Source: Verrucomicrobia bacterium LW23 (GTDB taxonomy: Bacteria > Verrucomicrobiota > Verrucomicrobiia > Methylacidiphilales > UBA1321). Taken from it: a stretch of 64,000 bases of DNA. Under the pieces are notes generated by a model. It was given only the letters and a program-made list of their open reading frames with translations. It made no database searches and had not been told where the DNA came from. The position numbers and the translations under genes are program-made. Positions 17,187-42,596 of the stretch are shown in pieces (the first letter of the stretch is position 1; each line of letters opens with the position of its first letter). The stretch covers positions 1 to 64,000 of the forward strand of contig QAZA01000010.1 in the NCBI GenBank assembly GCA_003054695.1, written 5' to 3'.

Positions 17187-19061
17187 CTAGCGCATGATGT
17201 AGACGTGCATGCCCGTCTGGTGGATGGTGCTGCCGGAGTCGCCGCGCCAGTTGGTCGTGCCCACTGCGTTGGAGATCTCCAGCCGCCGGATGGAATGCAG
17301 GCCCAGGCCAGGGTACCCGCTGTAGTCGGCAGGCACCACAGCGCCGTTGGACGACACAAACCCGCCGTATAGCTGGGCGCTGTTGGTGCTGCTGCTGTCG
17401 ATACCAATACCCGACGCCACCGTGGTCAGGCTGCTGGCGTTGTATACGATGGAGTGAACCCGCGCCCGCACCAACCCCCGGCCCAGTCCGTCAATATATT
17501 CCACGCGGCTGGTGCCGACTGTGCTGGAACCGTTGGCCTCACGATACGTCGCTACGGTGTAGTCCCAGTTGTCGGTGGTGTCGGTGGCCCGCAAAACCTT
17601 TTCGACCTGATTGTCCGTGTTCCACACATAGCTCCGGCTGGTGGAGTCTTCCACCGTGTTGGTGCCGCTCGAGCGGATTGTGCCGAGAAACCGCCGCGTG
17701 GCGTCCCCGTTCTTCACCAGCACGCCATCCTGCCACGTAAGCGACACGCTTACGCGCGTCTGCGAGTCGGTGCCGCCGGCGCCGCCCGTGGTGTCCCACT
17801 GGGCTACCTCAATCGCCACGGTCCCGCTGTTGTCGTACGCAAACACGTCGAAGTTGCGCGAGGCGGTCAGGCTTAGCGTCAGGTTGGTGGTGCCGCTGGC
17901 GCTCACGGTGCGGATCACCCACCCGCCGCCCGAGTAGAGGGCGATGCGCCCCGCACCACTGCCGCCGGCGTAGGACGTAGGCTTGGCGGCTGGCACCAGG
18001 TACAGCGTCCCTGCCCCTACCTGGTCTGTGGCCGGCACGGGATCGGTGCTGGCGCTGATACGGCACCCCATCGTAAGGGGATCGATGCTCGTGGTGGGCG
18101 TCGTCCAGCTGATGGTGGTGCTGGTGGATCCCAGCACCTGCCCGTCGCTTCCGCGCGCAAACCGTACCCAGTTGCTGCCGTTGTACATACTGAGATCGCC
18201 CGTAACAGGCGACCCGGGCATCAGGTTGTTGAGCGCGGTTTGCTGGGTAGTCGCACCCGTCCCACCGTTAGCGATGGAGACAGTCCCCAGGGCGATGGTG
18301 CGATTCGCGCTCAGGTCCGCGCTGGAGCCGCCGCCGATCGTCAGGGGGCTGGTGGCCGTGATGGTGCGGGAGGACGGCACCGCATCGGTGATGCCGTAGC
18401 CGCTCAGTGTGGTGGGCTTGCTGGCGATGTCCGCAAATGAGAGCGAGCCCACGGTGATGGTGCCGCCGGAGCTGCCTTGTTGCAGTACGTGGCCGGCGCC
18501 GCCTGTGGCCGTCAGGTCAATCCCCACGCCGCCGTTGGCTTTGGGCAGGATGCCAGTGACGTTGGCCGTGAGGGAGATGGAGGGCGTGTACCAGCCGCCT
18601 GTAATGCCGGAGTCAAAGCCGTACACCTTCCCCGCGCTGGGGGAGTTGGTGGCCATCAGCGCCCACGGGCTGACGGTGTTGGTGGCGTAGCGGCCGGGCG
18701 GGATGTACCCGGTCGTCAGGTTGGTGGCGTTGTCGGTGCCCAGGTTGGTGCGCGCCGTGGGCGCGTCGTCCACGTCGCTGAGGTTGTTGGCGGCCAGCAT
18801 ATCGCCGGTGCCGCCAACGGGCGCATCGATCACGTTGGTGTAGTACACCAGCACGCGGTCCTGATTCGCCGCCCAGAAGTTGGTGGGGAACGTCACCACG
18901 CTGTTACTGCCGCCCACCATCACCGTACGGCTGACGGGCTCGGGCAGTGTGGGCGCGCCAATCAGGGTGGCTGAGGCCGTTATCAGCAGCAGCAGGACGC
19001 CAAAGGCGGTGATGATCCAGTCGCGGAAATCCGACGTGCGTTCGTGTTTGTGGGGGGACAT
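17187..19061 (-). CDS. Tail fibre/adhesin with N-terminal hydrophobic segment
   Basis: A 624-residue Ser/Thr/Gly-rich beta-structured protein with fibre signatures: LPKANGGVGIDLTATGG, IANGGTGATTQQTALNNL and repeated AAD/NLS-type short units. It probably forms the trimeric receptor-binding fibre. The start at 19061 (MSPHKHERTSDFRDW) is just after the upstream gene. Oddly, residues about 14-36 (IITAFGVLLLLITASATLIG) look like a signal anchor or signal peptide, which virion fibres normally lack. The C-terminal half contains the likely tip domain (LVRARVHSIVYNASSL...). Confidence 0.72.
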   Translation of the reverse strand: MSPHKHERTSDFRDWIITAFGVLLLLITASATLIGAPTLPEPVSRTVMVGGSNSVVTFPTNFWAANQDRVLVYYTNVIDAPVGGTGDMLAANNLSDVDDAPTARTNLGTDNATNLTTGYIPPGRYATNTVSPWALMATNSPSAGKVYGFDSGITGGWYTPSISLTANVTGILPKANGGVGIDLTATGGAGHVLQQGSSGGTITVGSLSFADIASKPTTLSGYGITDAVPSSRTITATSPLTIGGGSSADLSANRTIALGTVSIANGGTGATTQQTALNNLMPGSPVTGDLSMYNGSNWVRFARGSDGQVLGSTSTTISWTTPTTSIDPLTMGCRISASTDPVPATDQVGAGTLYLVPAAKPTSYAGGSGAGRIALYSGGGWVIRTVSASGTTNLTLSLTASRNFDVFAYDNSGTVAIEVAQWDTTGGAGGTDSQTRVSVSLTWQDGVLVKNGDATRRFLGTIRSSGTNTVEDSTSRSYVWNTDNQVEKVLRATDTTDNWDYTVATYREANGSSTVGTSRVEYIDGLGRGLVRARVHSIVYNASSLTTVASGIGIDSSSTNSAQLYGGFVSSNGAVVPADYSGYPGLGLHSIRRLEISNAVGTTNWRGDSGSTIHQTGMHVYIMR

Positions 19062-19075
19062 GGGAAAAGTCAGGT

Positions 19076-19789
19076 TCAGGTTTCGGCGGGGCCCAGCTCC
19101 AGGTGCGCGGCCGCGCCAACGCCGGCCACCGTCACGGTGTGCCATGCGCCGGATACACCCTCGTCAGGGTTCCAGATCTGCAGGAAGTTGCCGTCTTCGT
19201 TGGAGATAAAGCGGTAGCTGCCATTGACTGGCGCCCGCACTACCAGGTCGCTCGGGCTGGGGTACAGCGGCGTGGCGGGTGTCGGGCTGCTCTCGGTGCC
19301 CTTGTAAATCTGCCGGGCGACATCAAGTTCAAACTGGTGAGTAATGCGCCGGGTATTGCCGCTGTCTTGCACCTCAATATCCACGTGCATTGGCACCAGC
19401 GTGGTGCTGGAGGGCAGCGCGGCAAATACCGCCTGCAGCTCCGTGGTGTTGAGGTTAATTTCACCCTCGTAGTACGTCTCCGTACCTTCCACCACCTCGG
19501 CAAAGGTATCCGTCTCAAAGTAAAGGGTTTCGCCACCAAGCTGCGCATCAATCTTCCCGCTCACCACAAGGTTCCAGCCATCACCCAGATCCAGCGATTG
19601 CGTGGCCGCACTTACCACTGCCGTCTTCCGGCGATACCACACCCGCAGAATAAACTGATCTGCCTGCACCCACTGCACCCGGTCAAAAGGCCAGCGCGCC
19701 GGGCTTGTCTGGCTGGCCAGCAGCGGAAAACTCCCGTACGCGTCGGCGTCGATGTAGAGGTTGATAATGCGCTGCCAGGGTAAGGACAT
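19076..19789 (-). CDS. Distal tail/fibre-connecting protein (hypothetical)
   Basis: A 237-residue beta-rich protein just upstream of the fibre. It begins MSLPWQRIINLYIDADAYGS and has SYRFISNEDGNFLQIWNPDEG near the C-terminus. No enzyme motif. Its position between the Erv-like gene and the fibre, with gaps of 5 and 14 bases, suggests a baseplate or fibre-attachment component. Family not recognised. Confidence 0.6.
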   Translation of the reverse strand: MSLPWQRIINLYIDADAYGSFPLLASQTSPARWPFDRVQWVQADQFILRVWYRRKTAVVSAATQSLDLGDGWNLVVSGKIDAQLGGETLYFETDTFAEVVEGTETYYEGEINLNTTELQAVFAALPSSTTLVPMHVDIEVQDSGNTRRITHQFELDVARQIYKGTESSPTPATPLYPSPSDLVVRAPVNGSYRFISNEDGNFLQIWNPDEGVSGAWHTVTVAGVGAAAHLELGPAET

Positions 19790-19794
19790 TGCAC

Positions 19795-20214
19795 CTAGCC
19801 TCTCACGCCACCCTTTTCCGGGCTACCCGCTGTGCGCCCCGTGCCGCCATTGCCGTCCACCGTCCAGATGCAGTAGGCCTCGCCCAGCGAGATTTCTGCT
19901 TTGCCGAGGCGGCCATTGACAGCGTTGTGCGCGTCCACCGTCCACCCAAACCACTCCGCGGCGGTCCCGCGGAGTGGCGGCGGATGCGCCGCGCACCAGG
20001 CGCGCCAATGGGCGCGGCAGTTGCAGCCGATGCCATGCACTCGGGCGGAAAAGGCGGCGAGCCAGGCGACGTCCCGCTCATCCCCCACGGGAACGTAGCA
20101 ATGCAACTCCGCCCATGTTGCGGGGCTGGCCTGCGGTGTGGGCGTGGGACCGATAGGGCGATCGACGACTCCCTTCAGACGTCCCGATTTGTCGTAAAGA
20201 CGTACCTCGCTCAT
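19795..20214 (-). CDS. Erv/ALR-like protein in the tail operon
   Basis: A 139-residue protein whose C-terminal half resembles the Erv1/Alr sulfhydryl oxidase helical core: GIGCNCRAHWRAWC (Cys64, Cys66, Cys74) followed by W..DAHNAVNGRLGKAEISL (96-109), the HNxVNxxLgKp flavin-site signature. The usual redox CxxC is replaced by CxC, so activity is uncertain. Classical Erv proteins use FAD and oxygen to make disulfides in partners. It overlaps the start of the next upstream gene's reading frame by ATGA (20211-20214); that gene encodes a Cys-rich protein, a plausible substrate. Assignment rests on motif resemblance only. Confidence 0.6.
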   Translation of the reverse strand: MSEVRLYDKSGRLKGVVDRPIGPTPTPQASPATWAELHCYVPVGDERDVAWLAAFSARVHGIGCNCRAHWRAWCAAHPPPLRGTAAEWFGWTVDAHNAVNGRLGKAEISLGEAYCIWTVDGNGGTGRTAGSPEKGGVRG

Positions 20215-20747
20215 GTAATAGTGATGGTCAACGTCCCTGAATACCCCACGGTGGGGCTGAATGTCTCGGTATGGGTGGCCCCTCCCGTGCCCAGCGGCAA
20301 TGCAAACTCCCGTTCAAAAGAGTAGTGAGATACGAACAGGGAGGATATCTGCACCCGGATCTGGCACTTCCGTGGTTCGTCAGGGTCGACCTCGACGAAC
20401 ATGTAGTCAATGCCGAATGAGCCTCCATCAATCTCTGCTTCATGGCAGGCATTGTCGGCAGGGGGAATGAGTTTATGGTAGGACCCTCCGATACCAGTCG
20501 GCCCGCCAATTTGAATAAAAGGGCAGCCACAGCATCCGAGGCCCAAAAAGGAGAAGGTCCCAACAGGCTGCGCGTTAATCGGGCCGCTGTCCGCGAGGGT
20601 TAGAACAAACGAATCTGAAAACCCGTTGGATGGCCCGGAGTCGCCGTCGCAATGGGCAATCTGTGACGCGGAGACCGTAATAGTGCTGAACACCGCCGGC
20701 CGTCGCACGGTTGCTGAGCACTCCCCCAGAAAGTTTTGGCCAGGCAT
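20211..20747 (-). CDS. Cysteine-rich tail protein
   Basis: A 178-residue beta-rich protein with an unusual number of cysteines for a phage structural protein, including LGLGCCGCPF, NFLGECSA, HCDGD, NACHEA and RKCQ. Disulfide or metal cross-links are likely. It lies four bases after the preceding tail gene and overlaps the Erv-like gene by four bases. Base composition is somewhat AT-richer than its neighbours. No known family recognised; the genetic coupling suggests it works with the Erv-like protein. Confidence 0.6.
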   Translation of the reverse strand: MPGQNFLGECSATVRRPAVFSTITVSASQIAHCDGDSGPSNGFSDSFVLTLADSGPINAQPVGTFSFLGLGCCGCPFIQIGGPTGIGGSYHKLIPPADNACHEAEIDGGSFGIDYMFVEVDPDEPRKCQIRVQISSLFVSHYSFEREFALPLGTGGATHTETFSPTVGYSGTLTITIT

Positions 20748-20750
20748 GGG

Positions 20751-21335
20751 CTACACCAGGCCGAAGAGATGGCCCCCTCCGCATTGCAGGTAAGCCTGCG
20801 ACCCACTGACGCCGCCCTCCTGGTTCGTCACGCTCGCCACCCCGCCGGCGATGGCGACGGTGATATACGCGCATACCTGGTAGGCCGTGCTCGCGCTGGA
20901 TGTCGGCAGCGTGCTGCCCGATTCGATCTCGATCGTATCGATGTTGCCCTCTTCGGTGATCGTCAGCTTGAACCAGACAATCGTGTCGCCCGTACCCACT
21001 GTGAGCGCCGGGTACTCCGCCGGATCGCCCGTTGTTGTGTTGATAGGGGTGCCGCCGATCGTCGGAACAATGCCGTTGTGGTTACCGGGTCGTACACGGA
21101 TGCGGGGCGTCGCACCAGTGCTGGCGTCGTACACCTGGTAGCTGTGCTCGGGGGCGGCTGAGCCGCCGCGGCGGCCAGGGTTCTTGATCTTCCAGCTCAG
21201 CCCGTTGGCGTCCCACTCTGGCGCAATGTCGGGCGACGACGTGGGGGTGAGCGAGCGCACAAAGGCAAGGAGCTTGCGGCCCCATGCAGCTCGCAGCGGT
21301 TCGCCCTCGTTTGGGGGATCGGGAAGTGTGGGCAT
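20751..21335 (-). CDS. Tail-associated structural protein (hypothetical)
   Basis: A 194-residue protein starting MPTLPDPPNEGEPLRAAWGRKLL. A short N-terminal helix is followed by Gly/Thr-rich beta sequence (SYQVYDASTGATPRIRVRPG) and a regular strand pattern with SASTAYQVCAYITVAIAGGVASV near the C-terminus. It resembles small tail-tip or hub-attached proteins by location only. Start chosen after the upstream stop at 21344. Confidence 0.6.
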   Translation of the reverse strand: MPTLPDPPNEGEPLRAAWGRKLLAFVRSLTPTSSPDIAPEWDANGLSWKIKNPGRRGGSAAPEHSYQVYDASTGATPRIRVRPGNHNGIVPTIGGTPINTTTGDPAEYPALTVGTGDTIVWFKLTITEEGNIDTIEIESGSTLPTSSASTAYQVCAYITVAIAGGVASVTNQEGGVSGSQAYLQCGGGHLFGLV

Positions 21336-21343
21336 GGTGCTGG

Positions 21344-22069
21344 TTACTCGTAAATGTCGGGGTCCCACTCATCCACGCCGGTCCACTCTTCAATCAACTC
21401 CCACCGGCCAAAAGTGCCTGTCTTGGTTCCCCTGCACGCTGTCTTCAGGTAGTCGTAGCCAGACGGCGCTTTGCACCCGGCTGGAGGGTTCTCCCGCACG
21501 CCGCAAGGTGTAACAGTCGGCATATTGTTCACCAGCATGGTGCGCCGCGCGATCGGCGTGTAAATCAGGTAGGTGTCCTGACCTCGCGCCTTTTTGTCGG
21601 CAAGCTCTTTGGCTAACGAGCTGAGCGCCGCATATGCAGTAGCACGCTCCGACGCTTTGTCTTTGCCCTCCCATTCGCGAAGCTTGTCTAGATCACTTGT
21701 CGTCAGATCACGAAAGTACGTATGGCTTTCCAGCTTCTTCTCCACCCGCAGCCACTCCACTTCGTATTTGGCCTGGTAGGGTTCCTCCTCTTCCTCGCTG
21801 TCGCCCCGGCCCTCCTTGCTCAAGGTAACAGTGAGCTCCCCTTTGCCGCCCTCCATGTGCACCACGCGGGCGTTGCTCACCAGCAAATCGGCAGGGGTGC
21901 CGCTCATCGCCTGGTTCATGGGTGGGCGCGCGGCCAGGCAGGACTCGTAGGGGCCTTGCCACACACGGGTTACCTGCTCACGTCCGGCCTGAAAATTCCA
22001 GTCGGGCGAGCCAGGCTGCTCCTCTAACTCGTGGGAGCCGTTCCATACGGGTTGCGTGGGGAGTGCCAT
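21344..22069 (-). CDS. Tail tip/distal tail protein candidate
   Basis: A 241-residue protein immediately after the tape measure (gap of three bases). An N-terminal beta-rich part (VWNGSHELEEQPGSPDWNF) surrounds a long acidic coiled segment (EEEEEPYQAKYEVEW...LDKLREWEGKDKASERATAY). It ends in a beta segment with PSGYDYLKTACRGTKTGTFGRWELIEEW. Position after the tape measure is where distal tail and hub proteins are encoded in siphophages; no domain match is claimed. Confidence 0.6.
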   Translation of the reverse strand: MALPTQPVWNGSHELEEQPGSPDWNFQAGREQVTRVWQGPYESCLAARPPMNQAMSGTPADLLVSNARVVHMEGGKGELTVTLSKEGRGDSEEEEEPYQAKYEVEWLRVEKKLESHTYFRDLTTSDLDKLREWEGKDKASERATAYAALSSLAKELADKKARGQDTYLIYTPIARRTMLVNNMPTVTPCGVRENPPAGCKAPSGYDYLKTACRGTKTGTFGRWELIEEWTGVDEWDPDIYE

Positions 22070-22072
22070 GGT

Positions 22073-23956
22073 TTAAGTCCAGGTGCCGGAGCTCTTTTTC
22101 TTCTGCTCTTCCAGAAACTGCTTGTTCTGGGTAATGAGCGTGTCGTTCTGCTTAACCAAACGCTCCGTATTTCCCGCCGTGGCGCGGGCGTAGTCAAAGC
22201 CGGGCCCCTGCCCGCCCACAAAGCCGCCGATGCGCGCCAGGTTATCGGGCGCCTCCAGTTTCGCGGCCTTGAGCGGCTTCGGGCCGGGTGCGTCGGCCCC
22301 CTTCTTGGGGTCGGTAAACATCATGCCGGCCTTTGCGGCCGCGCTACCCGCCATGCCGGCCATCATGTCGCCCAGCCGCGCAGCCGCCGTGTTCTGGATC
22401 ACGTCTCCCGCCTCCGCAAACTGGGAAACGAACACTTTACCGGCATTCACGGCCGTCTTGGTCATCGCCTCACCCAGGGGCTTGGTAACGCTCAGCACCT
22501 GTGCGCCGCTGCTCATCACGTTTTGCAGCCCGGCCTGAAACCGCTCCGACACGCTGCGACTGTCCTGAATCTGTTGCATCCCCGAGGCGATGTCCGAGGC
22601 GCCGCCCTGGAGCAGCGAGGCCGTTCCCGACCCGCGCATGGTCGCTCCCTGGACATCCTTGAACACCTCGCCAAACGACCGGTCGTCGTCCTTCCAGCCG
22701 ATCTGATCCTTCACCATCTTCGGCAGGCGATTCATCACACCGGACATGCCCGTCACCATCGCCGCCACAAAGGCTGCGGGGACGGAAAGAAACATCTCCA
22801 TCAGCTTCCCCACCACGCTTTTAAACGAGCCGATGATCACCGAACCGATGCCGCCCCAGAAGGAGGAGTCGCCCAGCAGGTCAAACCCGCCGATCATCAT
22901 GTTGGCCGCGCCGGCTGCCATGCCTCCAATAGCCGTCCACAGGGAGGGGTTCCCGATAACCTGCACGGCAGTCATCAGCATCCGGGGCACCTGAGTCAGC
23001 ACCGAATGCAGCGCCGCGCCGGCGCCGATCATCAGCCGCGCAAACACATTCACGCCCGAGACAAAAGCGGCCTCAAGCGCTGTAAAAAGCACGGATGTAA
23101 TGGTGCCGTCCGCAAACGATTCCGTCAGCAAACGCAGCGAGCCGCCGATCGCATCCCCCACTGAGGTGGCCAGCGGCACCAACTGCCCCAGCATACCGGT
23201 CGCCGCATCCAGCAGCGGCCCCAGCGTCTCGATGATCGGGGTGCCGAACGCCACATAGAGTTCAGTCACGCCATCTTCAAACGCAGACATCCGGCCTAGC
23301 CAGTTCTTGCTCTGCTTGTCCATCTGCCCGCCGAAGCGCATCAGGCTCTTTTCCACCAGAGCCCACACCTCCGGGCCTTTCTTGCCCATCTCCAGGGCAG
23401 CAACAACTGCCGCTTTTGTTTTGGCGTCGATCAAGCCCAGCTCATCCGACAGACGCGCCAGCGACTCGCCGCCAGCCGTGCCGTTTTGCGTGGCACTGTA
23501 GATGCGGCCGATGTGAAGCGCCACTTCATCGAGCTGCGCCATATCCGGCACCACCGCCGCCGCGTCACCCACCAGGCGCAGACCTTTGCCGGCGGAGAGA
23601 GCGTTGCCCGTCAGATTCTGCAACATCGTGCTGGCTTTCACCAGGTCTGCCGTGCCGTAGTTGGTGGTGGCGGCCATCGCCCGCAACTCGCCCATGCGAG
23701 TCTTTGCCGCACCCAGCGAGCCCAGCAACGTCTCAAACGTGCCGGTGCTTTGCTGCACCCTGCCTGCGGGATCCAGCGCGGCAATCAACCGCTCACCCGC
23801 CATTGCCGCGAGGTTGAGAGCGCTCTCCAGCCCGGTAATCACCTGCCCCAGGCTGCCCAGTGCGCCCAGCGCGCCGCCCACGCCGCCCGACATGGATCGG
23901 AGCGTGGACATGAATCCGCCCCCCTCCAGTGTCAGTGTTGCGGCAAGGTTCAGCAT
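22073..23956 (-). CDS. Tail tape measure protein
   Basis: A 627-residue protein with Gly/Ala-rich amphipathic N-terminus (MSGGVGGALGALGSLGQVI), the tape-measure-like motif TNYGTADLVKASTMLQNLTGNALS, and several long hydrophobic helices in the middle (LVPLATSVGDAIGG; ALEAAFVSGVNVFARLMIGAGA; ATVAFVAAMVTGMSGV-like). The Gln/Lys-rich C-terminus ends EEQKKKSSGTWT. By the usual relation of about 0.15 nm per residue it would set a tail of roughly 95 nm (inference). It follows the frameshifted chaperone genes, the canonical order. Confidence 0.9.
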   Translation of the reverse strand: MLNLAATLTLEGGGFMSTLRSMSGGVGGALGALGSLGQVITGLESALNLAAMAGERLIAALDPAGRVQQSTGTFETLLGSLGAAKTRMGELRAMAATTNYGTADLVKASTMLQNLTGNALSAGKGLRLVGDAAAVVPDMAQLDEVALHIGRIYSATQNGTAGGESLARLSDELGLIDAKTKAAVVAALEMGKKGPEVWALVEKSLMRFGGQMDKQSKNWLGRMSAFEDGVTELYVAFGTPIIETLGPLLDAATGMLGQLVPLATSVGDAIGGSLRLLTESFADGTITSVLFTALEAAFVSGVNVFARLMIGAGAALHSVLTQVPRMLMTAVQVIGNPSLWTAIGGMAAGAANMMIGGFDLLGDSSFWGGIGSVIIGSFKSVVGKLMEMFLSVPAAFVAAMVTGMSGVMNRLPKMVKDQIGWKDDDRSFGEVFKDVQGATMRGSGTASLLQGGASDIASGMQQIQDSRSVSERFQAGLQNVMSSGAQVLSVTKPLGEAMTKTAVNAGKVFVSQFAEAGDVIQNTAAARLGDMMAGMAGSAAAKAGMMFTDPKKGADAPGPKPLKAAKLEAPDNLARIGGFVGGQGPGFDYARATAGNTERLVKQNDTLITQNKQFLEEQKKKSSGTWT

Positions 23957-26869: not shown

Positions 26870-27787
26870 TCAGGCGGCGTCGGCGCCCGTGGAGCCGTAG
26901 GCGAGCTCGGGCAGGCCGTAGCCGGCGTTGTACCGGCCGTAAGCCTGGTAGATGAAGCGGTGGTTGAGCAGCATGTCCACCGAGTTGGGCGCGGTGGCGG
27001 AGGTGAGCGACACCGGCTTTTCCTCCTGGAAGATGAAGGGCTTCATCACCTGGCCCAGGTCGACCAGGAACCACTTATCCGGGTCCGCCGCCAGGCGGGG
27101 CCACACGATCAGCTTCGCCGTGCCCTTGTCCACGTTGGTGCCGGCCGCCGTGCCGCCGGCGTTGATGATCAGGTCCGCTTCCAGGATCTGCCGCGCCGTC
27201 GTCTCGTAGGCGGGGGAGACGATGAGCGTGAGGCCGGAGCCCAGGTTCATCGGGCGGCCCTCGGCGTTCAACCGGCTCTTGATGTTCTCGCGCGCTGTGG
27301 CGTAGTTGGCCGCGCTGATCTTCTTGGTGCCGCGATTGGAGAACCCCGTCTTATTCGCCTGGGGCATGTGGGTCGTGGAAAAGAACGTGGTGCCGGTGTA
27401 GCAGTTCTGCGTAAAGCCGTTGAGCAGCAGATTGGCCACGAGCTCGTCCGCATGCTCCGCAGCCACGCGGCCCATCGCCTGGAAAAGCGGGTTATACAAG
27501 CCGTACGAGTCGCGCTCGATATCCTTGCGCTTGATCTCGATCGTGTCCTCCCACTCCTTATTCAGGATGGTGAAACCGTGCGCGGCCAGGTTGCGGATCT
27601 GGACGGAATCCACGAGCTCGCGCATGCCGGGGATGCTGCCCAGGAAGTTGTACGTCTCGTCCGCGTTGGACGAGGTAGTGCGGAGCGCCATCTGGGGCCA
27701 CATGGGCTGCCCGGCCTGGTAAGCCTGGTCGAAGAGCACCCGGTACCCCTTGTTCAGGGCGGCGATAGAGTCGGCGTTGATAAGCAT
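26870..27787 (-). CDS. Major capsid protein (Mu gpT-like)
   Basis: A 305-residue capsid subunit of the Mu gpT (HK97-fold) family. Signatures: N-terminal MLINADSIAALNKGYRVLFDQAYQ, RELVDSVQIRNLAAHGFTILNKEWEDTIEIKRKDIERD, and the C-terminal DLGQVMKPFIFQEEKPVSL...NHRFIYQAYGRYNAGYGLPELAYGS. Length matches Mu T. It is preceded by decoration and protease/scaffold genes and followed by head-tail joining genes, the canonical morphogenesis order. Confidence 0.95.
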   Translation of the reverse strand: MLINADSIAALNKGYRVLFDQAYQAGQPMWPQMALRTTSSNADETYNFLGSIPGMRELVDSVQIRNLAAHGFTILNKEWEDTIEIKRKDIERDSYGLYNPLFQAMGRVAAEHADELVANLLLNGFTQNCYTGTTFFSTTHMPQANKTGFSNRGTKKISAANYATARENIKSRLNAEGRPMNLGSGLTLIVSPAYETTARQILEADLIINAGGTAAGTNVDKGTAKLIVWPRLAADPDKWFLVDLGQVMKPFIFQEEKPVSLTSATAPNSVDMLLNHRFIYQAYGRYNAGYGLPELAYGSTGADAA

Positions 27788-35427: not shown

Positions 35428-36894
35428 TTACCTCGCGGGAACAGTCCGAGGATCCTCGAACCGGGTGAAGGGTGAGTTGTACGCAATCTGCAGCTTGTCC
35501 ACCGGGCCGCTGCGTTGCTTGGCGATGATGAGGCTGTACGGGAGGGCGCCGGGCTGGGGCGTGGCACCTTCCTCCAGTTCGTGGCGGTGCAGCATGAGAA
35601 CCATGTCGGCGTCCTGCTCAATGGCGCCGGACTCGCGCAGGTTGTGCAGGGCGGGTTCCGCCTTGCCTTCCTCGCTCTTGCGGTTGAGTTGCGCCAGGAT
35701 GATGACCGGGACGCCCAGCTCTTTGGCCATGCCCTTGATGCCGCGCGAGATCTCCGCCACCTCCACCTGCCGGTTATCCTTGGCCTGGCCGCTTTCGCTG
35801 CGCAGCAGCTGCAAATAGTCCACCACCACCAGGTCAATGCCGTAGCGATCTTTCATCCGGCGCGCCTTGCCGCGCAGCTGGTTAATGGTCATGAACGACG
35901 AATCGTCCAGGTAAAGCGGCATCTGCTTGAGGGCGGCGCCCGCCTGGGCCAGCAGCTCCATCTCCTTGTCGGTCAACTCGCCGCGGCGGATGCGCTGCAT
36001 GTCCACACCGCTCATGCTGGAAAGCAGGCGGAGCATCAGCTGCTGGTTGGTCATCTCCAGCGAGAAAAAGCCGACGCCGTAGCCGGGCCGCACCCATTCG
36101 TCCAGCGTGTCGTCATAGCGCGCATCCAGCGCGTGCCGGGCAAAGGTGAGCGCCAGGGCGGTCTTGCCCACGCCAGGGCGCGCGGCCAGCACGATCATGT
36201 CGCCGGGTTGCCACCCGGTGGTCAGCTGGTTAAGCTGGTAAAAGCCGGTAGGGATACCGCTCAGGCGCCCCTTGCGGGACTGCCATGTGGCGGCCACCGC
36301 CAGAGTGCGATCGACTTCATCCCGCACGCACACGATGGAGTTGCCAATGCCCTTGTTGGTGATGGCGAACACGGACGTTTCCGCCGCGTCCAGTACGCCA
36401 GCCGCGTCGTCCGGCCGGTCCGCAATGTGCTGCACGATCCCCGCGCACACGCCCTGCAGGTTGCGCAGCAGCGCCTTGTCGTACACGATGCGGATGTACG
36501 CCGCGCAGTTGAGGTGCGTGGCCAGGCCGGCCGCGAGCTCCGCCAGGTAACCGGGCGCGCCAATCGCCTCGGCAATCTTTTTGTCGACCAGGTACTGGTG
36601 CAGCGTGGTGATATCGATCGGCGTACGCGCGTTGTGCATGGCGGCCAGCGCGGTAAAGATCTCCTTGTGCGCCGGCACAAAGAAATCCTCCACCCGCAGC
36701 GCCTCCAGCACCGTGTCAATAATCTCGTCCGGCCGCGACATCATCGAAGCCAGCACCGCCTTCTCCGCGTCCGCGCTGTACAGCGGGCCGGGGATAAACG
36801 TGGCCGGGTTGAGGAGCTCCGCTGTGTGCACCGGCTCCGCCTTGCGGCGGCGCCGGGACTTTGCGGGGGCCTCGTAGGTGGGATCGTAGCTCAT
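35428..36894 (-). CDS. Phage DnaB-type replicative helicase
   Basis: A 488-residue hexameric helicase. The N-terminal domain (about 36-165) includes SADAEKAVLASMMSRPDEI. The RecA-like domain follows with Walker A ARPGVGKTALAL (238-249), a FSLEMTNQQLMLRLLSS helix (277 on), Walker B LVVVDYLQLL (355-364) and IEQDADMVLMLHR. Length and motifs are those of DnaB, not a loader. Mu-type phages use host DnaB through PriA, so an own copy is unusual. Its start overlaps the previous gene's stop by four bases (36891-36894). Confidence 0.93.
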   Translation of the reverse strand: MSYDPTYEAPAKSRRRRKAEPVHTAELLNPATFIPGPLYSADAEKAVLASMMSRPDEIIDTVLEALRVEDFFVPAHKEIFTALAAMHNARTPIDITTLHQYLVDKKIAEAIGAPGYLAELAAGLATHLNCAAYIRIVYDKALLRNLQGVCAGIVQHIADRPDDAAGVLDAAETSVFAITNKGIGNSIVCVRDEVDRTLAVAATWQSRKGRLSGIPTGFYQLNQLTTGWQPGDMIVLAARPGVGKTALALTFARHALDARYDDTLDEWVRPGYGVGFFSLEMTNQQLMLRLLSSMSGVDMQRIRRGELTDKEMELLAQAGAALKQMPLYLDDSSFMTINQLRGKARRMKDRYGIDLVVVDYLQLLRSESGQAKDNRQVEVAEISRGIKGMAKELGVPVIILAQLNRKSEEGKAEPALHNLRESGAIEQDADMVLMLHRHELEEGATPQPGALPYSLIIAKQRSGPVDKLQIAYNSPFTRFEDPRTVPAR

Positions 36895-38833: not shown

Positions 38834-39204
38834 CGCACACCTCCCGTCGCCGTCGTCGCGGCAACCTGAGCCGCCGCCACACGAACCGCCCGGCCGGCGG
38901 CCCGCGCCGCCTGCACCTGCAGCCGCACGTGGGCGATCGCCCGCTCGTACTGCGCGCGGATCACCAGTGCCTGGCGCCACGCCTCGCGCCGCCCGCGCCC
39001 GGAGATCCCCACCCAGCACCCGCCGCCCCGGCCCCCGCGATCCACGCGGAAGCCGTTGCGCGAGTGACAGTAGCTGATGCCGGCCACGCCTGTGTTGCTG
39101 CGCGGGGACGCCGTGCGAAGGTGCGCCAGGCGCGGCCCCTGGCGGGGCACCCAGACGCGGCCCAGGCGGTAGGCGCCATCGGCTTGGGAGGTGAGCACGC
39201 TCAT
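38830..39204 (-). CDS. AP2/ERF-like domain phage protein
   Basis: A 124-residue protein with a segment resembling the phage AP2-type DNA-binding domain: NTGVAGISYCHSRNGFRVD (the 'GvsydkrrgkWra' strand pair), then GCWVGISGRGRREAWRQALV (the last strand and helix). The basic N-terminus and Ala-rich C-terminal helix flank it. AP2 domains are typical of phage homing and regulatory proteins. Overlaps MuB-like and 84-aa genes by ATGA. Confidence 0.58.
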   Translation of the reverse strand: MSVLTSQADGAYRLGRVWVPRQGPRLAHLRTASPRSNTGVAGISYCHSRNGFRVDRGGRGGGCWVGISGRGRREAWRQALVIRAQYERAIAHVRLQVQAARAAGRAVRVAAAQVAATTATGGVR

Positions 39205-40214
39205 CGCCGGGGCTGTGCCTCCTTCACGGTCTTAAGCTCGGTGCGGGCCTTCACCGCCTGGTGAAACACGTCCATGGTGGGCGCGTCCTTGCCGGCCAGC
39301 TCGCGCACTTTCTTGATGACCTCGCGGACAAAGGCGAGGTTGCCGCGGTTGACGGCGGCGATGAGCAGCACGTGCACCATGGTTTGCATGTGGGGGCGCA
39401 GCTCGGGCAGGCGGTTTTCCAGCATGATTTCCACGTCGCCGGGGTCGCAGTCGTTGAGCTGGATCACCGCAGCCAGGCGGTTGCCGGTGAGCTGGCGCGC
39501 CTCCTCAAAGGCGGCGAGCTCCAGGCGGCGCCACAGGGTGCGCATGCTGGCCACGATCACCTCGCCCGGCGTCTGGTTGATCAGGCTCTTGATGACGTTG
39601 AGGATCTTCGGGCCCATGTGGTGCCCCTCGTCCACAAACAGCGCCACGCGCGGCTCGGTCATGTGGCGGACCAGCATGCTGAACCGCTCCATGGAGGTGC
39701 GGGGCACATCCTTCACGCCGAACGCGCCCAGGGCGCATTGCATGAAGCTCATCGGGTTGTCGCCGATGACCTGGTTCATCTCCATGCCCACGATGCGCGG
39801 GCCGTATTTCTCCTGCAGCGCGCGCTTCAGCGACGATTTGCCAGAGCCGGTATCACCCAGCACCAGGATAAACCGCGCGTTGTCGCACTCGGTCATCGCG
39901 GGCAGGAACACGGAGCGCAGCTTGTTGACGCCCGACATGCGGTCGTACATCTGCTCCCGCTCCCGCTCCGCCGCCATGCTGCGCACCAGCGCCGCCACCG
40001 TCCGGTAACTGGCTAGCCACTTCTCGCTGTCCAGCTCGGAGTCCAGAATCTTGCCGGCGGCAATGATGCTCCACGTCTTGCTGGAGCCCAGCCCCGGAAA
40101 CATCCGGCACAGCGCCTCAGTCGACAGACCTTTGCGCTGCTGAAAATCGCGAACCTGCTGGACAATCGTCGCCAGCTCGTCCGCATCCATCTGTGCAAGT
40201 ACCTCGGGAGCCAT
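39201..40214 (-). CDS. MuB-like AAA+ target-capture ATPase
   Basis: A 337-residue protein with an N-terminal helix-turn-helix-like segment (STEALCRMFPGLGSSKTWSIIAAGKI, about 31-56 as separate pieces) and an AAA+ domain: Walker A LGDTGSGKSSL (119-129) and Walker B VALFVDEGHH (190-199). MuB binds target DNA, activates MuA and gives target immunity. It follows MuA with one small gene between (40219-40665), a small departure from the direct A-B order of Mu. Confidence 0.92.
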   Translation of the reverse strand: MAPEVLAQMDADELATIVQQVRDFQQRKGLSTEALCRMFPGLGSSKTWSIIAAGKILDSELDSEKWLASYRTVAALVRSMAAEREREQMYDRMSGVNKLRSVFLPAMTECDNARFILVLGDTGSGKSSLKRALQEKYGPRIVGMEMNQVIGDNPMSFMQCALGAFGVKDVPRTSMERFSMLVRHMTEPRVALFVDEGHHMGPKILNVIKSLINQTPGEVIVASMRTLWRRLELAAFEEARQLTGNRLAAVIQLNDCDPGDVEIMLENRLPELRPHMQTMVHVLLIAAVNRGNLAFVREVIKKVRELAGKDAPTMDVFHQAVKARTELKTVKEAQPRR

Positions 40215-40721: not shown

Positions 40722-42596
40722 TCAATAAGCCCAATCGGGCACTATCGTGCCGCTGTCGCGCAGCGCATCCTCCATCTGCTGGAGACGCTCATGCTCCGCG
40801 TCACGGGCGGCGGCGCTGGGTGTGGGCGCGGGGGAGCTCTCCCGCGCCGGCGTCTCAAACGCCGCGGGCTCCGCGCGGGGAGTGCGCGGGGCCTGCGCGG
40901 GCGTGTCGCGGGGGGCGGCGGGAGAGGAGGCGGGGGCACCGGCCGGGCGGCGCGTATTGCGCTCCACGCGGGCCACCTGGCCGTCGTGGGTGCGCATCTC
41001 GGAGACGGCGGCGCGCGGTACCATGCGGCCGTGGGAGAGGCCGGTGGTGCGGTACTCGGTGCGCACGGCGGCGTTGAAGCGGCGGCGAGCGTCGTTGGCG
41101 TCGGCGCGGGCGTCACCGGCAAAGCCGTCTGCGGCCAGGGTAAAGACAGGCGTTTCCGCCTCCGCCGTGGTGTCGCCGATAACGTGGCCGGCGCGGTACT
41201 CGCTCCACGCCTCGGCAAGGATGAGGCGCGCGGGGGCGTCGGGCATGTAGGGATCAAAGTGCACGTCGATGCGGCGGCCCTCGTGTATCCACAGGTCGTC
41301 GTGACGGAAATACATCTGCACCTTGCCGCCGGGCGTCTCCACGGTGCCGCCCACAAACGCCTTGCGGGCCGTCCACTGGCGGCGCTCCGGGGAGAAAAGC
41401 CAGCGTTGATCGGCGGAAAGCGGGCGCATGGGGCGCTCGGCAAGCTCCTGCTGCCAGCGCACGGCGGGGATCCAGTGGCCGCGGCGCTTGCTCTCGATCG
41501 GCTCGGCGTTTACCCACTCGATAGCGGCGGCCAGGCGCTCCATCGCTTCCTCCAGCGACATGAAATGCTCACGGGGATTGACGGCACCGGACTGGCAGCG
41601 GCTCAGCATCTTGCTGTTCCACTCAAAGCTGCCGCGGGTGCGGCCCACGTGGCCGGGGAAAAGGGAAAGCGGCGTCCACAGGCGCCCGAAATAGTTCTCG
41701 ATAAAGGGCTTGCCGTTGCTGCTGTAGGCATAGAAAGGTTTGGTGCCGGCGGCGTTCAGGGCGGTCTGCACGCTCTGCGCCTTCCAGGTGCCCTGCTCCA
41801 GCCCGGTCACCAGCGGCACGCCGACATCCGTGTAGGCCTGGCCCATCACGCCCAGAATATCCGTGGCCCGGTAGGCCTCATGCGGCCGCACCACAAAGGA
41901 GTAGGCCGGGCAATAAAGCGTCGCCGCGTCCACCGCCAGCAACAGCTGGAACCGGCCCACGCGACAACCCCAGCGCTCCGAGCACTTGTCGCCGCCCCAC
42001 GGCCAGTCCACCACCACAGGGAAATTGATCGTGGCGTCATCCCACTCCCACAACGCGCCCGCGTGCATCGGCACTTCCCGGCCCGTGTGATCCTCATAGG
42101 TATTGCCACGTAACGTCATATAAAAATCCTTCGCCGTATCGGACGGCCGGCGATGGTGCTGCACCACCGCCTTGGGCACATCCATCACCCGCCGAATCAC
42201 CGACGTCAGCTTGTGCTTGCTGGAGCGCGGGCGCAGAATCGCCTCCCGCAACTCCTCCGAACACCGCGCCGACTGCGCAAACATCCGCGCCGCCGCCGTC
42301 TTGCTCCCCGCCTCCGCCGTCCGCTCCGTGGAGATGTATATTGCCTTAAGCGCCTGATCCTCAGCCGGGGTGATTACGCAGAGGGGATCACGACCACGCG
42401 CATCGAAGGCGGGGACCAGGCCTTGGAATCCGCGCTCCGCGTGGGCTTTTCGCCACCTGGATATGGTTGCTTGGCTCAGCCCTAGGGCTCGACACGCACG
42501 AGATTCAGACCCCAACTGAGCGATTTTTTCATCCACCCGCCGCAGCGTATCCATGCGCTGATTGGCGATTGTCATATGATCCTCAGTTGGGGGCAT
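40722..42596 (-). CDS. MuA-like DDE transposase
   Basis: A 624-residue transposase/integrase. An N-terminal helix-turn-helix (RACRALGLSQATISRWRKAH, 33-52) precedes an RNase-H-fold core: WEWDDATINFP (Asp186/187), LLAVDAATLYCPA, then GLEQGTW (265-271) and GKPFIENYFGRLW with Glu300. The second catalytic position, Asp in Mu (Asp336), appears to be Glu267 here. A Mu-C-type beta barrel (KVQMYFRHDDLWIHEGRRID) and a Pro/Ala-rich, ClpX-recognition-like tail follow. It is expected to act on the end repeats at 16599-16665 and 56276-56440. Confidence 0.93.
   Translation of the reverse strand: MPPTEDHMTIANQRMDTLRRVDEKIAQLGSESRACRALGLSQATISRWRKAHAERGFQGLVPAFDARGRDPLCVITPAEDQALKAIYISTERTAEAGSKTAAARMFAQSARCSEELREAILRPRSSKHKLTSVIRRVMDVPKAVVQHHRRPSDTAKDFYMTLRGNTYEDHTGREVPMHAGALWEWDDATINFPVVVDWPWGGDKCSERWGCRVGRFQLLLAVDAATLYCPAYSFVVRPHEAYRATDILGVMGQAYTDVGVPLVTGLEQGTWKAQSVQTALNAAGTKPFYAYSSNGKPFIENYFGRLWTPLSLFPGHVGRTRGSFEWNSKMLSRCQSGAVNPREHFMSLEEAMERLAAAIEWVNAEPIESKRRGHWIPAVRWQQELAERPMRPLSADQRWLFSPERRQWTARKAFVGGTVETPGGKVQMYFRHDDLWIHEGRRIDVHFDPYMPDAPARLILAEAWSEYRAGHVIGDTTAEAETPVFTLAADGFAGDARADANDARRRFNAAVRTEYRTTGLSHGRMVPRAAVSEMRTHDGQVARVERNTRRPAGAPASSPAAPRDTPAQAPRTPRAEPAAFETPARESSPAPTPSAAARDAEHERLQQMEDALRDSGTIVPDWAY

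Follow-up and report, generated by a model that had tools for sequence, protein, structure and literature searches.

A putative CxC thiol oxidase of the Erv/ALR family, encoded by a Mu-like prophage and by many uncultured phages, commonly beside a cysteine-rich gene

More than 100 uncultured viral sequences were found to carry a gene for an Erv/ALR-like protein, most of them adjoining a cysteine-rich gene, which suggests that phages form disulfide bonds for themselves within the cell. In the stretch of DNA analysed here (64,000 nucleotides, hereafter the window), such a pair is formed by a 139-aa protein, P0001 (19795..20214, minus strand), which is proposed from its sequence and structural model to be a putative FAD-dependent thiol oxidase whose active site is CxC, and by a 178-aa cysteine-rich protein (20211..20747, minus strand), proposed as its candidate substrate and as a candidate tail component. 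We hold it to be probable that P0001 is a phage-dedicated cytosolic disulfide-forming enzyme which oxidises its cysteine-rich neighbour, the two genes constituting an enzyme-substrate cassette. The sequence-only reading of this DNA had described an overlap of the two genes, a HNxVNxxLGK motif in the shorter product and an abundance of cysteines in the longer one, all of which are real: both genes lie on the minus strand and share an ATGA stop/start overlap (20211..20214), the motif reads HNAVNGRLGK (residues 96-105; 19900..19929, minus strand), and the 178-aa protein has seven cysteines (positions 10, 33, 72, 73, 75, 101 and 128), a content of 3.9% (0.039), which among 236 phage genes of at least 120 aa ranks at percentile 97.9.

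The resemblance of the 139-aa protein to Erv/ALR, also noted earlier, goes beyond chance. P0001 matched PF04777 (Evr1_Alr) with an E-value of 9.6e-7 (29.5 bits, above the cut-off of 27.6) and had no PHROG match. Its AF2 model (mean pLDDT 82, with the helical core above 90) has the predicted helical-bundle fold of the family: the top solved structure (VIA) was ASFV pB119L (3gwl; Z 12.0 over 94 residues at 2.2 A), the 15 top structural matches were all Erv/ALR proteins (Z 9.6-12.0) and the next row fell to Z 4.6. Foldseek searches with the same model gave Erv/ALR proteins in all of rows 1-24 at a probability of 0.99-1.00, with a best E-value of just 1.6e-3. A profile of 62 phage members compared with PDB sequences matched 3gwl (E 4.4e-18) and 3o55 (E 1.3e-17), and each of the 62 aligned representatives matched PF04777 at E <= 0.01. 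The sequence-only reading had named the lack of a helical bundle as grounds for refutation, and the model shows no such lack. By sequence and predicted fold, P0001 is genuinely related to the sulfhydryl oxidases of the Erv/ALR family. Both flavin-site motifs are present, WAELH (Trp34 to His38; 20101..20115, minus strand) aligning with the conserved W..LH of ALR and HNAVNGRLGK, which holds the conserved HNxVN, aligning with HNEVNRKLGK of ALR; W34, H38, C66, W91, H96, V99, N100 and G104 are invariant across the 62 aligned members. The W..LH and HNxVN residues, invariant or nearly so in these members, we take to be FAD contacts, and we infer that the protein binds FAD and acts as an oxidase. Its cysteines lie at positions 39, 64, 66, 74 and 115, with Cys64-Asn-Cys66 (CNC; 20017..20025, minus strand) as the counterpart of the FAD-proximal CxxC; among the 62 aligned members one cysteine column is invariant, and none of the extra cysteines that might form a distal shuttle disulfide (39, 74 and 115) occupies an invariant column.

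The gene pair lies in a prophage which, as had been proposed, is Mu-like. PHROGs matched in the window were phrog_310, phrog_296, phrog_371, phrog_328 and phrog_220, and they include a MuA-like transposase (40722..42596, minus strand; phrog_310, E 6.7e-19), a MuB-like transposition protein (39201..40214, minus strand; phrog_296, E 7.1e-13) and Mu-type head genes for a head protein, a head protease and a minor head protein, the major head protein (26870..27787, minus strand) matching phrog_371 at E 2.3e-69. A DnaB-like replicative helicase (35428-36894; phrog_19, E 2.6e-101), unusual for a transposable phage, is also encoded inside this prophage. The gene order runs from the tape measure through a 241-aa, a 205-aa, the cysteine-rich and the Erv-like protein to a 237-aa and a tail-fibre-like protein. 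On the minus strand in this module, the 627-aa tape measure protein (22073..23956) matched phrog_5062 (E 6e-6) and the 652-aa tail-fibre-like protein (17187..19145) matched phrog_7389 (E 0.003); the 241-aa conserved tail-module protein (family A6; 21344..22069) belongs to a family present in 40/384 genomes of the window's class, and the 205-aa tail-module protein (20751..21368) matched P0009, its counterpart in G217 phage DNA, by BLASTP (E 5e-9). That G217 phage DNA also has an Erv-like gene. A tape measure gene was found upstream in the window and in the four other loci tested (L113, L058, L050 and L021), and the position of its gene downstream of the tape measure makes the 178-aa protein a likely tail protein. 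A candidate second prophage copy in the host assembly was rejected: host contigs C9 and C10 are perfectly identical over 60 kb or more (the start of C10 against the window stretch of C9, window bases 1-60000), and because the flanking chromosome is identical too, the match is probably an assembly duplicate and no second insertion, the alternative being a very recent duplication. Elsewhere, on contig C1 of genome G607, four copies of a relative of the 241-aa protein lie between 4485988 and 4593771, each 35,720 bases from the next, suggesting that a prophage of about 35.7 kb is repeated there in tandem.

Scanning with a degenerate DNA pattern for W....HN.VN..[LIVMF]GK, we found at least 120 matching stretches in uncultured viral contigs, including the window's own phage (L112) and the L012, L013 and L021 contigs, and eight in the bacterial and archaeal genome collection. 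Judged by their translations, the viral stretches carry the Erv core; for the eight genome stretches, PF04777 was present in 4/5 genomes checked and the other three were unrelated by translation. A scan of bacterial and archaeal genome contigs with query A2 gave 26 stretches, none confirmed. The Erv-like gene occurred in 3/384 genomes of the window's class and 3/387 of its phylum, and a planctomycete-side search, with a query genome reached via L029, found it in 1/294, this being the query genome itself. Among 50,697 cultured-phage records, tblastn gave no match for the window protein (E limit 1) or for the Erv queries from L113, L036 and L067 (E limit 0.1), and P0003 at an E limit of 10 gave four weak unrelated matches (E 5-9); one cysteine-rich partner likewise had no match in these records. 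As these five Erv queries gave no credible cultured-phage relative, the phage branch has probably been overlooked, and in the open-licence literature, by title and the start of the abstract, we recognised no description of a phage-coded Erv; the one paper found that brings PF04777 and phage together deals with NCLDVs. For comparative analysis, the 120 matches listed were joined by six added members (the window, L002, L006, L014, L015 and L019), and these 126 members fell into 33 lineages at 60% identity (among the matches listed). In the 11 lineages that offered usable pairs, median dN/dS was 0.05-0.25, showing at the level of coding sequence that purifying selection acts on the Erv-like gene in related lineages.

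Pairing was measured as the cysteine fraction of the directly upstream gene, taking the median member per lineage, against a null of 236 genes of at least 120 aa from one locus per lineage with the partner and the Erv vicinity left out (95th percentile 0.0271, with 5% expected above). Because many Erv ORFs escaped a simple gene caller, they were forced in. The upstream neighbour exceeded this percentile in 21/33 lineages among the matches listed (binomial p ~1e-19), and in the largest lineage (67 members among the matches listed) all 62 evaluable members exceeded the 95th percentile of a 1117-gene null. The reverse search, with ten partner queries from the largest and one neighbouring lineage, gave 63 partner loci, and in all 51 with enough downstream sequence an Erv-like gene stood directly downstream (51/51); as the phages are related, these are not 51 independent events. 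In support of the sequence-only reading, the pairing of the enzyme with a cysteine-rich gene that it put forward for the window extends widely to other phages. Together these sequences make up a phage branch of the Erv family that is common and usually paired with a cysteine-rich gene; its members here come from contigs of uncultured viruses and from a small number of bacterial genomes. At one such locus, the Erv-like gene overlaps at its 3' end with a gene (L113:7498-8394) that encodes a relative of calcineurin-like phosphoesterases/repair exonucleases (phrog_7339, E 1.3e-8; Pfam below cut-off), and genes of similar length come after the Erv-like gene in many relatives.

The pairing is not universal. 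In seven lineages with a CPC motif (group B, a grouping made once the data had been seen) a cysteine-rich neighbour was found in 0/7, which indicates that an Erv can be of use to a phage even where this partner is missing. Of the 26 lineages outside group B, five missed the cysteine threshold (L120/L141, L057, L074, L075 and L094). By eye, a cysteine-rich gene could still be seen in L075, where the called neighbour is an overlong ORF, while L141 has a 33-Cys gene two genes upstream and L094 (seen as L021) a 62-Cys gene on the other side of the Erv; L057 and L074 showed no cysteine-rich gene directly upstream. The L021 gene (6163-8082) encodes a 639-aa protein with 62 cysteines and adjoins an Erv-like gene with Cx5C spacing. 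Conversely, of 31 stretches from other genomes of the class that encode a homologue of the 241-aa protein, one (G234, L275) had an Erv-like gene, and the next positions of the remaining 30 held mostly cysteine-poor genes and some cysteine-rich ones. Three Erv-less tail modules, L261 (58 Cys), L262 (8 Cys) and L263 (18 Cys), contain genes resembling partner proteins, so a cysteine-rich gene can do without an Erv neighbour; the L261 protein, encoded on the reverse strand of a homologous tail module, is 724 aa long.

These unpaired cases lend some weight to an explanation in which the Erv fold and flavin are kept and the enzyme targets host or other phage proteins, the cysteine-rich neighbour being a bystander or one of several substrates: the group B Ervs adjoin no cysteine-rich gene, and cysteine-rich tail-region genes occur without an Erv. 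We nevertheless consider it unlikely, given the two-way pairing in the largest lineage (62/62 among the matches listed, and 51/51 in reverse) and the pairing of 21/33 lineages among the matches listed with genes that often overlap.

The sequence-only reading had found the chemistry uncertain on account of a CxC where CxxC is usual. The CxC is indeed present, and by the available part of PMC10598087, which gives C-X-X-C as the signature of the Erv family, P0001 with its CNC lacks that element; since it does so although its homology and fold are those of Erv/ALR, its sequence places it as a new CxC variant, a non-canonical member of the family. Within the phage family CxC is the rule rather than a defect, with 110 of 126 members against 15 with CxxC and one with Cx5C (23, 9 and 1 of the 33 lineages, all among the matches listed). 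On a tree of 81 cores, built from few alignment columns, the distribution of CxC and CxxC requires six changes. The departure from the family signature could also mean that the protein is catalytically dead and assists the cysteine-rich protein structurally or in the manner of a chaperone. A decayed site would be expected to lose a cysteine, yet the close pair (CxC or CxxC) is kept in 125/126 members among the matches listed, and the invariant flavin-site residues and low dN/dS also speak against a dead enzyme, which we therefore judge very unlikely. CxC pairs moreover carry out disulfide exchange elsewhere, as the CPC of Mia40 (in the text available from PMC4019985) and the Cys-X-Cys found among the shuttle pairs of cellular Ervs (in the accessible sections of PMC3509050).

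Several members differ from P0001 in architecture. The second phage Erv branch, that of the seven CPC lineages (L031, L036, L048, L015, L019 and relatives), has proteins of about 200-235 aa with a long N-terminal extension and no cysteine-rich neighbour, and a gene, where one ends directly before the Erv-like gene, often encodes a protein of 423-438 aa that has no convincing Pfam match (one scanned). The Erv-like proteins of L002 (7848-8333) and L012 (5779-6291) carry near the N terminus a cysteine cluster (CxxC ... CPLGLF or CPAGLF) with the look of a small metal-binding domain of its own. Longer C-terminal fusions to the Erv-like domain occur in L047, L109, L057, L077 and L149, among which the L057 fusion matched a methyltransferase (E 3.6e-9), that of L109 gave a weak match to glycosyltransferase family 8 (E 7e-4, below cut-off), and L077 has a rubredoxin-like start.

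The partners themselves match no known family with confidence. Of ten searched at E up to 0.1, nine had no Pfam match and none had a PHROG match, and the 178-aa protein matched neither database; folded alone, its AF2 model had a pLDDT of 38. Homology of the partners across lineages was considered and set aside, as the window partner showed no significant BLASTP similarity to its counterparts in L002 and L014; what links these three is their position and their composition. Cysteines made up 20/23 invariant columns in one partner alignment and 20/47 in another, as would be expected of disulfide-bonded proteins from their sequences. That the cysteine-rich protein instead binds zinc or an iron-sulfur centre, with the Erv-like protein guarding its thiols or aiding metal loading, is scarcely credible: many partners do begin with a dense cysteine cluster such as CCCxC, and the P0004 partner gave a sub-threshold zf-CXXC match (E 0.04), but structural disulfides better fit cysteines that run along the whole length and dominate the invariant columns, and nine of ten partners lack any Pfam match up to E 0.1.

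In the reading that we prefer, the gene pair would be an oxidative-folding cassette working in the bacterial cytoplasm, and we infer both the substrate of the enzyme and the place of that substrate in the particle. Erv enzymes pass electrons from substrate thiols to the FAD-adjacent disulfide, then to FAD and on to oxygen. By the same path, the Erv-like protein would bind FAD, its CxC disulfide would accept electrons from the thiols of the neighbouring cysteine-rich, probably beta-rich, tail protein, in which disulfides would thereby form, and the electrons would then move from CxC to FAD and from there to oxygen or some other acceptor. Through the coupled ATGA start, enzyme and substrate may be made at the same time and in the same place, and the disulfides would stiffen a part of the tail tip that must survive outside the cell after synthesis in a reducing compartment. 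A crude hydropathy scan found no obvious signal-peptide-like hydrophobic N-terminus in either P0001 or the 178-aa protein. Within the accessible text of PMC3509050, compact viral Ervs lack the shuttle disulfide, and disulfides have been made in the E. coli cytoplasm with yeast Erv1p (PMC11180911, in the part available). Direct cytoplasmic oxidation of the overlapping gene's product is proposed because of these shuttle-less viral Ervs, the Cys-X-Cys pairs, the Erv1p precedent and the absence of a signal-like start. On balance we also favour a broader proposal, with somewhat less assurance, that many uncultured tailed phages run their own cytoplasmic oxidative folding by means of a compact CxC Erv flavoenzyme dedicated to a cysteine-rich, multi-disulfide tail protein from an overlapping gene, and that some such enzymes, fused to glycosyltransferase-like or methyltransferase domains, may combine disulfide formation with other modification of the particle.

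Virus-coded disulfide formation has been described for large eukaryotic viruses and for baculoviruses. If the proposal is true, phages have a counterpart in the bacterial cytoplasm, tied to one tail protein, and have met the problem that those viruses face with the fold that they use. The production of disulfide proteins in E. coli could then profit from a natural CxC flavin thiol oxidase already functional in bacteria, and a class of very cysteine-rich phage proteins that match no known family would be explained.

Among known systems, ASFV pB119L was the top match of P0001 both by structure (Z 12.0) and by profile (E 4.4e-18), and both are small, single-domain viral proteins; pB119L, however, belongs to a virus of eukaryotes and has a CxxC active site in place of CxC, and to our knowledge its gene does not overlap that of a single cysteine-rich substrate. 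Human ALR and yeast Erv1 and Erv2 have the fold and the W..LH and HNxVNxxLGK motifs in common with the phage protein, whereas they are cellular, eukaryotic and equipped with CxxC and added shuttle pairs; the phage proteins, since a single cysteine column is invariant over 62 members, probably have no conserved shuttle. Mia40 is like P0001 in its CxC pair, but its fold is unrelated, it has no flavin and it is a partner of Erv1 rather than an Erv itself. The available part of PMC11654684 describes the baculovirus oxidase BSOX (Ac92/P33) as an Erv-type enzyme that forms disulfides in the nucleus at the site of capsid assembly, and the other viral holders of Erv named there alongside baculovirus are eukaryotic viruses. 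BSOX differs from the phage protein in its extra pseudo-Erv domain, its insect host and its connection with the capsid rather than the tail, and, on that same partial account, resembles what is proposed here in being a viral Erv-type oxidase that acts in a normally reducing compartment.
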